A DNA stretch of 64,000 nucleotides from positions 2,542,001-2,606,000 of the forward strand of contig NZ_CP107254.1 in assembly GCF_029229925.1 (NCBI RefSeq), in the 5' to 3' direction. The stretch's first letter is position 1. Every line of letters begins with the position of its first letter. The stretch is from Halorhabdus sp. BNX81 (GTDB lineage: Archaea; Halobacteriota; Halobacteria; Halobacteriales; Haloarculaceae). Positions 11,037-25,622 of this stretch are shown here, in pieces. The notes under the pieces were generated by a model. That model did not search any database and had not been told where the DNA came from. It saw nothing but the letters and a program-made list of their open reading frames with translations. The translations under genes and the position numbers were made by a program.

Positions 11037-11315
11037 TCAGAATGCCGCGATGATCACGGCGGGGACGAACGCGACCTCCAGCACCGACAGCAGGATCACA
11101 ACGATTGCGCCGGGCAAGCCCCCGATGGCGACGATCAACAGCACCAGCGGCGATATCGCCACTTCCAGTCCGAGTGCCATCTCGGCGACGAGGAAAACGA
11201 CGAGGCCGATCACCGCGTTCCAGACGAACGGCTTGATTGCCTTGACGATCCAGTACGCGCCAAAGACGACGCCGAGGACGACCACCAGCGCCGCGACTTC
11301 GATACCTGTTACCAT
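11037..11315 (-). CDS. BofA-like small membrane protein
   Basis: 92 residues with three hydrophobic segments. The pattern (AIKPFVWNAVIGLVVFLVAE ... GGLPGAIVVILLS) resembles the pro-sigmaK processing inhibitor BofA family, which archaea possess without any sporulation pathway. It stands alone between the nucleotidase gene and tRNA-Pro. Function in archaea is not known; assignment rests on the hydrophobic pattern and the conserved Asn/Gly positions. Confidence 0.65.
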   Translation of the reverse strand: MVTGIEVAALVVVLGVVFGAYWIVKAIKPFVWNAVIGLVVFLVAEMALGLEVAISPLVLLIVAIGGLPGAIVVILLSVLEVAFVPAVIIAAF

Positions 11316-11573
11316 ATCTGTACTTCTACGTGACGTCGTATGTGCTTTCTGGCCAGTGAGATCGAAAGAGGGATTGAACGGGGAGACTGTCGGTAGAAAC
11401 CGCGTGAAAGCCCCGGACCGTTCGAGTCGGGAGGCTCGCCCATTTCAGTCCCTCCCGTGTCTCCTGGTCGGGCAGCTGGTGTGGGTGAGGCTTTTACGCT
11501 GTCTCCGGTGGTCTCGACTCTAGCAATATTACGAACGAAACGCTTTACCTCGCGTCGTCGTAATTGTGGGTAC

Positions 11574-11646
11574 GGGACCGTGGGGTAGCTTGGTATCCTT
11601 GCGGCCTTGGGTGCCGTTGACCTCGGTTCAAATCCGAGCGGTCCCA
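11574..11646 (+). tRNA. tRNA-Pro (anticodon TGG)
   Basis: A full cloverleaf folds by eye: acceptor GGGACCG/CGGTCCC, D arm with A14, G18G19 and A21, anticodon stem GCGGC/GCCGT with loop CTTGGGT (anticodon TGG), T arm CTCGG-TTCAAAT-CCGAG, discriminator A. CCA is not encoded. No intron is visible. No T-run follows the gene itself; the nearest is about 135 bp on, after a duplicated copy of the tRNA tail, so the primary transcript may include that element. Confidence 0.95.
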
Positions 11647-11692
11647 TGCTTCTGCGAGGAACGGACGTGACGAGCGAAGCATGCAATAGCGA

Positions 11693-11773
11693 GGATTTGA
11701 ACCCTGGAAGTCACGCGCAACGAGCGAAGCGAGTGAGCATGTCTTCCTCTGGTTCAACATCCGAGCGGTCCCA
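11693..11773 (+). repeat. tRNA-tail hairpin element, copy at tRNA-Pro
   Basis: The last 22 nt of tRNA-Pro (11625-11646, from the T arm to the discriminator) recur at 11751-11773 with one inserted base. The 5' part (GGATTTGAACCCTGGAAG from 11693) is an inverted complement of TCTTCCTCTGGTTCAACATCC (11742-11762), so the RNA would form a stem of about 20 bp with a GC-rich loop. A T5 run follows at about 11781. The same architecture occurs after the second tRNA of this window (25415-25622). It is non-coding; function is unknown. Confidence 0.7.
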
Positions 11774-12186
11774 TACCACCTTTTTACGGCGTCGGGTGCG
11801 CCTGCGGCGCACCACTCCTTGTAAAAACGTGGGCGAAAAACGTCCTGCTCGCGAGCCGACGGCTCGCTCGCAGTGAAACGCGCTCGCTTCGCTCACGGTT
11901 CCACCGTTCGCGTTTCCGAGACGCTCCCCCCGGTCGCGTCTCGCTTCGCTCGCGCGTACGCTCAACTGATCCAGTCGTCAGCTCCTCTTCAAAAATAATG
12001 CTCTCCACCGTCTAGGCGTAGGGACCGAAGCGTTTCCCTCCGAGGAGTCGATCGCGTCTTTCTACGCTTCGGAGAGCCCGACTTGTCCGGCCGATGTCGG
12101 CGACGGCTTCGAGAGTTAGTTCGACCAGGGCACCTGAGCCATCGTCTTTCTGCCGGTTGAGTGATCGGCGAAACACCTACAACCCT
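11774..12186. other. intergenic region with GAGCGAAGCGAG-type inverted repeats
   Basis: No convincing gene is seen between the tRNA-Pro element and the VapBC operator. The stretch holds a T5 run (about 11781) and several short inverted repeats built on GCTCGCTTCGCTC-like sequence (for example 11861-11872 and 11879-11900), a common type of haloarchaeal intergenic DNA. Open frames crossing it have poor codon usage. Confidence 0.55.
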
Positions 12187-12205: not shown

Positions 12206-12409
12206 ATGGGAAGCACAATCCGCGTGTCCGACAACACAAAAGAACTCCTCAACCGGCTCAAGCAGGAAGACGAAACGTACGATGAGTTGCTCTCGCGACT
12301 CGCCCGCGAAAGCGATACGATGAATCCTGGCGTCTGGGACGAAGACCAGGTAGACGCCGCTCGAGAAGTTCTCAAACAGTCCCGGAAGAGTTTCGAGCCT
12401 CACCGATGA
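12206..12409 (+). CDS. vapB: VapB-type antitoxin
   Basis: 67 residues. The N-terminus STIRVSDNTKELLNRLKQEDETYDELLSRLA is a short ribbon-helix-helix-like or DUF7557-type DNA-binding motif, and the C-terminal tail (WDEDQVDAAREVLKQSRKSF) has the loose basic/acidic composition expected of a toxin-wrapping segment. It overlaps the PIN toxin gene by ATGA, the usual arrangement of a VapBC pair. The palindrome just upstream fits autoregulation. Confidence 0.8.
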   Translation: MGSTIRVSDNTKELLNRLKQEDETYDELLSRLARESDTMNPGVWDEDQVDAAREVLKQSRKSFEPHR

Positions 12410-12801
12410 GTTTTCTCGATACGTCCGTCATCATCGACTACTTGGGCGATGTCGACGACGTAGTCGCGTTCGTTGACGATCAAGATACGCTTCTCACCTC
12501 GAGTATCTGCGTCTTCGAAGTCCTCGTCGGCGAGGTCCACGCGCCCGGCCCGACCGATATCTACCAGCGACGCCAGGACTTCGGCCGCGTGCAGGCCATA
12601 GAGTTCTCCGAGACTGTCGCGATAGAGGCGGTGCGATTGCAACAAGAGCTGATGGCAGACGGGGTACAACTGTCCCCCCGGGATATGATGATCGCTGCGA
12701 CGGCACGCTCGACGGGAGCCGAGCTGGTCGTCGCCGATTCGGACTTCGATGTCGATCCCCTCAGGGAGTACATGAACGTCCGCGATTTGCGCTCGGAGTA
12801 G
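12406..12801 (+). CDS. vapC: VapC PIN-domain ribonuclease toxin
   Basis: 131 residues with the four acidic PIN positions: Asp in MSFLDTSVIIDYL (about 5), Glu in CVFEVLVGE (about 38), Asp in LSPRDMMIAATA (about 91) and Asp in ELVVADSDF (about 109). VapC toxins cut tRNA or rRNA; here the antitoxin is encoded directly upstream with a 4-bp overlap. All catalytic residues are present, so the toxin looks active. Confidence 0.88.
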   Translation: MSFLDTSVIIDYLGDVDDVVAFVDDQDTLLTSSICVFEVLVGEVHAPGPTDIYQRRQDFGRVQAIEFSETVAIEAVRLQQELMADGVQLSPRDMMIAATARSTGAELVVADSDFDVDPLREYMNVRDLRSE

Positions 12802-25292: not shown

Positions 25293-25367
25293 GGGCCCGT
25301 ATCTCAGTCTGGTTAGAGAGAGCGGCTCATAACCGCTTCGTCCTTGGTTCAAATCCGAGCGGGCCCA
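25293..25367 (+). tRNA. tRNA with CAT anticodon (elongator Met or Ile2)
   Basis: Cloverleaf: acceptor GGGCCCG/CGGGCCC, D arm TCTC/GAGA, anticodon stem AGCGG/CCGCT with loop CTCATAA (CAT), T arm CTTGG-TTCAAAT-CCGAG, discriminator A. CCA is not encoded and no intron is seen. It lacks the AGCGGG start of initiator tRNA. The acceptor is close to that of archaeal tRNA-Ile, so an Ile2 tRNA with modified C34 is as likely as elongator Met. Confidence 0.92.
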
Positions 25368-25414
25368 TACAGCGTGCCGCGAACGACAGTGAGCGGCCGC
25401 TGTATCACCACCGA

Positions 25415-25501
25415 GGATTTGAGCCCTGGAAGTCACAGCCCGCGCAGGACCGGAGGTCCGAGCAGGAATGTCTTCCTCCGGTTCAAATCCGAGCGGACCC
25501 A
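25415..25501 (+). repeat. tRNA-tail hairpin element, first copy at tRNA(CAT)
   Basis: The 22-nt tail of the tRNA (25346-25367) recurs at 25480-25501 with one mismatch (GGACCCA for GGGCCCA). GGATTTGAGCCCTGGAAGTC at 25415 is the inverted complement of TCTTCCTCCGGTTCAAATCC (25471-25490). Flanks and stem match the element after tRNA-Pro closely (GGATTTGARCCCTGGAAGTCAC, GTCTTCCTC), although the two tRNAs differ. Confidence 0.7.
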
Positions 25502-25549
25502 TGTGCGTGGCGTGAGCAAACTCGCGAGCGCCCGCTACTGGAAAAGCAA

Positions 25550-25622
25550 GGATTTGAATGAGACCTGACGCGCACAGCGAAGCGAGCACGTCAGGGCGTG
25601 GTTCACAATCCGAGCGGGCCCA
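25550..25622 (+). repeat. tRNA-tail hairpin element, second copy at tRNA(CAT)
   Basis: A third tail copy lies at 25600-25622 with a one-base insertion in the T loop part (TTCACAATCC) and an intact GGGCCCA end. GGATTTGAATGAGACCTGAC (25550) is an imperfect inverted complement of the segment ending GTGGTTCACAATCC, giving a third hairpin, with loop CGCACAGCGAAGCGAGCAC. The stem sequence differs from the other two, with paired changes. Confidence 0.6.

Follow-up and report, generated by a model that had tools for sequence, protein, structure and literature searches.

The closest described systems each share some features with the sequences reported here. The casposase of A. boonei reads the TCAAATC of the T-loop (PMC6614799). 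In haloarchaea, the PATEs, MITEs and SMRs of Haloquadratum are transposase-free, and for viruses and islands that integrate at tRNA genes repeats of 22–43 nt have been reported (both PMC3119063). We analysed a stretch of 64,000 nucleotides from Halorhabdus sp. BNX81 (contig NZ_CP107254.1, positions 2,542,001–2,606,000; referred to below as the window), in which a tRNA-Pro gene is followed by a hairpin and a copy of its own 3' tail. Open-access papers yielded no description of such elements. At gathering score only the two tRNAs of the window match Rfam 15, and none of its described RNA families matches the element. In our view, the arrangement probably represents a haloarchaea-wide family of small non-coding insertion elements (~90–190 bp) which target the 3' ends of tRNA genes and rebuild the tail of the gene that they enter.

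The target gene, tRNA-Pro(TGG), occupies positions 11574–11646 of the forward strand (ARAGORN, Rfam), on which the remaining features of the locus also lie, and its last 22 nt, GGTTCAAATCCGAGCGGTCCCA, are found at 11625–11646. An earlier note on this DNA had all 22 of these nucleotides recurring downstream. The tail does recur, at 11751–11773, but the copy, GGTTCAACATCCGAGCGGTCCCA, is 23 nt long and contains one inserted C; the exact block shared by tail and copy is 16 nt, the two occurrences being 127 nt apart. The note had also drawn the element as 11574–11785. A hairpin with a tail copy indeed stands behind tRNA-Pro, but the natural unit is 11647–11773, a 127 bp insertion made up of head, arm, core and tail copy. 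The head hairpin (11647–11681) has an outer part that is able to extend the pairing into the 3' end of the tRNA. The left arm, CGAGGATTTGAACC (11690–11703), is the reverse complement of the T-loop and the start of the T-stem 3' strand of the tRNA; the inverted complement described ahead of the copy is present within it, with GGATTTGAACC at 11693–11703 being the reverse complement of GGTTCAAATCC in tRNA-Pro. The core hairpin (11690–11765), which is closed by the left arm and the tail copy, scores 67.2 bits (E = 3e-15) with our covariance model R1.

Behind the unit lies the original flank of the tRNA (11774–11790), with a T-run at 11781–11785, past the tail copy as had been noted, which is the likely terminator. 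This T-run is probably the terminator of the tRNA displaced downstream, because it is found directly behind the tRNA in a genome of the same genus (G006), and its position after the unit makes it plausible that the unit is transcribed together with the tRNA. The proposal that the 5' arm could pair with either copy agrees with our analysis of sequence complementarity, which finds both pairings: arm with tail copy, giving the hairpin 11690–11765, and a joint pairing of arm and head with the tail of the tRNA itself (11625–11652 with 11676–11703, 79% complementary). Treated as RNA, 11574–11790 folds better than 200 of 200 shuffled sequences (z = -3.1); the fold of 11647–11790 alone is not exceptional compared with shuffles (z = -1.4). 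We note that two mechanically called open reading frames, 11309–11686 (-) and 11607–11876 (+), cross the tRNA and the element (GPLGFEPRS..., ...EDLNPGS...); frames of this sort could be mistaken for small proteins in annotation. Some 400 bp behind the element, at 12206–12801 (+), a VapB-type antitoxin (PF02697) is paired with a PIN-domain (VapC-like) protein, any link to the element being hypothetical; tRNA is often the cleavage substrate of VapC toxins.

The limits of the unit are defined exactly by its absence from a close relative. At tRNA-Pro of G006 the flank lies directly behind the tRNA and exactly 127 bp, tail copy included, are absent, with positions 128–251 downstream of the tRNA in the window corresponding to positions 1–124 in G006 at 98.4% identity. 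At tRNA-Asn 160 bp are absent in G006 and the flank is again joined straight to the tRNA. At five other tRNAs (Arg-ccg, Thr-ggt, Gly-gcc, Ser-tga and Met) the two genomes have a unit in common, 95–99% alike, and one genome of the pair has one or two extra units between the tRNA and the shared unit. Comparison with G004 adds further cases of extra units at Val-tac, Ala-ggc, Ala-cgc, Asp and a second Met. The polarity of these additions is nearly consistent, with the extra unit adjoining the tRNA in about ten cases and lying clearly inside the array in one (Val-tac in G006). Of the unit entries compared within the genus, 18 of 60 are shared in one species comparison and 8 of 63 in another, and shared units are 95–100% identical between species. 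A 111-nt unit behind tRNA-Gln is identical in G000 and G004, whose sequences upstream of it are 78% alike. Loss of a unit by deletion between tail repeats would mimic a missing insertion, so single cases are no proof of direction; the new heads and cores beside the tRNA, together with the identical 111-nt unit next to upstream DNA of 78% likeness, argue for gain. A fixed regulatory trailer accounts less well than an insertion element for the presence and absence of units in close species, their tandem stacking and their fast turnover.

Many relatives of the tRNA-Pro stretch were found by sequence search in the same genome (2.83 Mb, one contig, 41 tRNAs), and those examined sit behind tRNAs. 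When the last 16 nt of each tRNA were sought within 420 nt downstream, 22 of the 41 tRNAs were followed by a copy of their own tail, with 30 copies in total, compared with eight positives in 1566 control tests (0.5%) using the tails of other tRNAs; this background rejects a chance repeat. No own-tail copies were found upstream of the 41 tRNAs. Under a rule that takes both arm and copy, there are 29 units at 24 tRNAs, and about half of the tRNAs are without a unit. The units are ~90–190 bp in length, with no coding room, and distal copies decay. The second target in the window is tRNA-Met(CAT) (25293–25367, +; ARAGORN, Rfam), behind which two units stand in tandem on the same strand, each with a terminal tail copy: the first at 25368–25501 (hairpin 25412–25493; R1 74.3 bits) and the second at 25502–25622 (hairpin 25547–25614; R1 31.1 bits). 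Some tail copies of this genome contain a second kind of short double-hairpin sequence between the T-loop and the acceptor part (loci L038, L047, L049, L054 and L063, behind tRNAs Ala, Asp, Gln, Val and Arg), past which only ~14 nt of tail reappear; this may be a separate small mobile repeat.

Both the tail and the arm of a unit are fitted to the tRNA that it follows. Specificity of the tail copy for its tRNA extends from position ~52/53 to the discriminator (~22 nt), with an identity per position of 96–100%; after shuffling of the tRNAs most stem positions give 33–56%. Identity drops sharply just 5' of GG-TTC; as units were picked partly by their tail match, it is the edges and not the absolute identity values that are informative. 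The arms, which were located by a generic motif, are tRNA-specific genome-wide, showing 63 mismatches with their own tRNAs, whereas 20,000 shuffles gave 104 on average and never fewer than 82. Where the T-arm varies between tRNAs the arm varies with it, as exemplified by the arms at Gln (GGATTCGAA), Gly (GGAATTGAA) and Asn (GGACTCGAA). The paired core is common to different tRNAs: in the Halorhabdus genome Lys-ttt and Arg-ccg have a near-identical core with arms fitted to each tRNA, and across genera similarity scores of 0.92–0.96 are reached between the cores of Gly and Arg and of Pro and Leu. Nearest-neighbour isotype agreement for cores is 17.9%, which is inside the shuffled range (maximum 21.4%). 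For heads, the nearest neighbour in another genus is at the same tRNA isotype in 29.8% of cases compared with 7.0% after shuffling (maximum 20.2%), and this greater likeness at the same tRNA type favours target-tied lineages or a guide-like choice. The 3' end of the head also appears complementary to the acceptor part of its own tail (310.5 compared with 293.7 in 1000 shuffles, s.d. 7.2, maximum 317); this is no more than suggestive, being visible by eye in many units but with a weak statistic, and plays no part in our interpretation. The main core type is CCCTGGAAGTCGCAG...CCGTCTTCCTCYGG, and other core types have paired loop motifs of their own (GTAGA...GCGTGG, TCACG...CATCGGG and TCAGGGA...CGACCGTGG).

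Conservation of the paired bases, on which the earlier note had staked its reading, is observed, and it is accompanied by compensatory changes. In the consensus hairpin nine of the 13 predicted pairs show a double change that preserves pairing. Among 76 matches, the alignment of which was fitted to the covariance model and thus favours the pairing signal, 95.8% of cells are paired and 88 cells carry double changes compared with 25.8 in shuffles, a signal that is lost when the partners are slid. Most of the paired variation is in the inner stem, a part that is not copied from the tRNA, so copying of the target does not explain the pairing. Among imperfect pairs there are 16 G-U and seven A-C; this excess is a weak hint, only suggestive, at RNA rather than DNA, and compensatory pairs are equally expected from a folded DNA strand.

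The covariance model, which was built on the hairpin, matches 190 of 194 sampled Halobacteria genomes and 62 of their 65 genera, often with at least 24 matches per genome. In a sample of the phylum, matches are confined to the same order (31 of 33 genomes, and none of 164 others). As the earlier note had anticipated, the element stands behind many other haloarchaeal tRNAs: all 30 loci fetched from covariance matches lie directly behind a tRNA and nearly all have tail copies, with five such copies in two of the arrays. A pattern of arm and core run against the GTDB collection matched 38 stretches, all from haloarchaea, and 35 of 39 matches are 34–343 nt behind a tRNA on the same strand. The remaining four comprise two behind partial tRNAs and two at the cut start of one locus, where the hairpin spacing agrees with that of a tRNA-Phe array which is complete elsewhere. 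The units of Halosimplex salinum (L162, 3640–4000; L191, 2120–2300) follow truncated 3' parts of tRNA-Thr and tRNA-Phe, which are perhaps att remnants of larger unit-carrying elements. The hairpin is missing from four Halobacteria genomes (G031, G032, G048 and G081), all of which have Y1 transposases; in two hairpin-free genomes no tail copy is found at any of 30 tRNAs, indicating that the two features are gained and lost in concert. Viral contigs, phages and plasmids gave no match to one exact pattern and one blastn query, searches that divergent carriers could escape.

These observations suggest the following course of events. Insertion would place head, arm and core straight after the tRNA, and the unit would end in a fresh copy of the tRNA's own tail, comprising the T-loop, the 3' strands of the T-stem and acceptor stem, and the discriminator. 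The tRNA gene would be left whole and its terminator shifted away. The tail copy keeps the tRNA intact, which makes stacking possible, and newer units would enter beside the tRNA to give arrays with the newest member nearest the gene. The polarity suggests a need for something that is found only at the real tRNA, such as a complete T-arm or body. The units would then be mobile DNA, a recombinase would recognise the folded hairpins and the arm may help to choose or hold the target. The arm may be a guide, a hairpin wall that is kept matching by repair or a by-product of tRNA-specific lineages. A bolder version, which we regard as possible but doubtful, makes the arm a target guide: the element would pair with the T-arm, take target sequence into its arm and right end and retarget between tRNAs, as a sequence-matched, polarised and tRNA-anchored array system run by a common haloarchaeal host enzyme.

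Against the insertion reading it can be said that a function, too, would lead to near-universal presence and a strong constraint on pairing; the absence of Y1 transposase, Cas1 and reverse transcriptase from unit-rich genomes, detailed below, also counts against it. One such function, close to the interpretation in the earlier note, which is partly supported overall, is that of an RNA trailer: the unit would be transcribed as a 3' extension of the tRNA, and precursor processing, folding or stability would depend on whether the arm pairs with the copy or with the tRNA. This would account for the compensatory changes in the hairpin, the 16 G-U compared with seven A-C pairs, the T-run found only past the unit, the z of -3.1 for the whole stretch, the occurrence of units in nearly all Halobacteria and the 95–100% identity of shared units between species. 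However, about half of the tRNAs are unit-free, the same tRNA has different units in species of the same genus, two genomes have no units at all and distal copies decay, so that we consider a trailer unlikely. Replication errors offer an account that needs no transposase, since repeated template switching at T-arm hairpins could copy the tail forward and backward and give the order tail, inverted tail, tail. It is hardly credible here as a full explanation, since it would not yield a core of one consensus, 92–96% alike at different tRNAs in different genera, with compensatory changes.

Two other readings concern known kinds of mobile element. Tail repeats at tRNA 3' ends mark the recombination of integrase-borne elements or proviruses in haloarchaea (PMC3119063, PMC7230728), and the units could be remnants of these, with the tail repeats as attL and attR. 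A direct repeat of the tRNA 3' end is present at the far junction and tyrosine recombinases occur in all genomes tested, but the uniform small size (~90–190 bp), with no cargo or integrase gene between the repeats, and the single conserved hairpin at nearly all tRNA types, with its inverted arm, make this origin very unlikely; furthermore, a circle carries one tail, which would not be the correct one for other tRNAs, so that each lineage would have to keep to one tRNA. We regard as highly improbable that the units are non-autonomous, PATE-like ends of IS200/IS605-type single-stranded DNA transposons, in which the arm would be an unusually long guide, the core the right-end hairpin and the tail the sequence cleaved on both sides. 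This would fit the hairpin, which has a conserved mismatch and lies behind a sequence able to pair with the flanking junction on either side, the subterminal imperfect hairpins (head and core) and the abundance of PATEs in haloarchaea (PMC3119063). However, no match to the Y1 transposase (PF01797) was found in the Halorhabdus genome, G002, G059, G063 or G158, all of which are unit-rich, and Y1 is present in all four unit-free genomes tested, which rejects it as a constant partner although it may have been present in the past. The pairing, of at least 10 nt, is far beyond the 4–5 nt known for IS200/IS605 guides.

Other enzymes are also inconstant. Cas1 is absent from G158, G059, G011, G033, G173 and others, all with many units, and is thus rejected as a constant partner, as is the reverse transcriptase that a retroelement would need, no match to RVT_1 having been found in 13 genomes that include unit-rich ones. 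Among the families tested only tyrosine recombinases are found in every genome examined, and the Halorhabdus genome has just two; their ubiquity means that presence neither supports nor excludes a role, and a host recombinase is a possible candidate for the mover of the units.

If our reading is correct, an unnamed family of elements occupies a large share of tRNA genes in nearly all haloarchaea, each fitted to its own tRNA, and target-matched insertion that spares the host gene would have a new and simple model in them. It would explain many of the partial tRNA tails and doubtful small open reading frames behind haloarchaeal tRNAs, and would open to direct test both the identity of the enzyme that moves the units and the possible presence of long hairpin trailers on haloarchaeal tRNA precursors. 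The guide version, if true, would be a new category.

Comparison with known systems shows likenesses to several of them. The genome-wide mobile REP/BIME hairpins of bacteria and the cassette arrays of integrons, which grow beside a fixed site, can both be likened to the units; to our knowledge neither is anchored to tRNA genes or carries target sequence. CRISPR arrays resemble the units in having the newest member beside a fixed leader and in copying the repeat at each addition. Casposons likewise insert at tRNA 3' ends with target duplication, but the duplication is 14–15 bp, whereas the haloarchaeal units copy ~22 nt starting at the T-loop. Casposons also have terminal inverted repeats, which the units lack, the arm being internal (22–86 nt from the left end), and they use a Cas1-type integrase, whereas several unit-rich genomes have no Cas1. 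Viruses and islands that integrate at tRNA genes resemble the units in that the 3' end of the tRNA is repeated at their far junction, but carry kilobases of cargo and an integrase; the units are ~130 bp, gene-free and found at dozens of tRNAs per genome. The PATEs, MITEs and SMRs of Haloquadratum are, like the units, short, transposase-free, hairpin-bearing and abundant in haloarchaea (PMC3119063), but they have no tie to tRNA genes and no target-derived copy. PATEs have Y1 as their mobiliser, which genomes with units need not have, and MITEs are characterized by terminal inverted repeats combined with a short duplication of the target, which is not seen in the units. Each of the nearest systems (casposons, att repeats of integrated viruses and PATEs/MITEs/SMRs) thus fails at least one tested defining feature, and the best reading of the units, which match no described family found, is that they are small non-autonomous insertion elements at tRNA genes.
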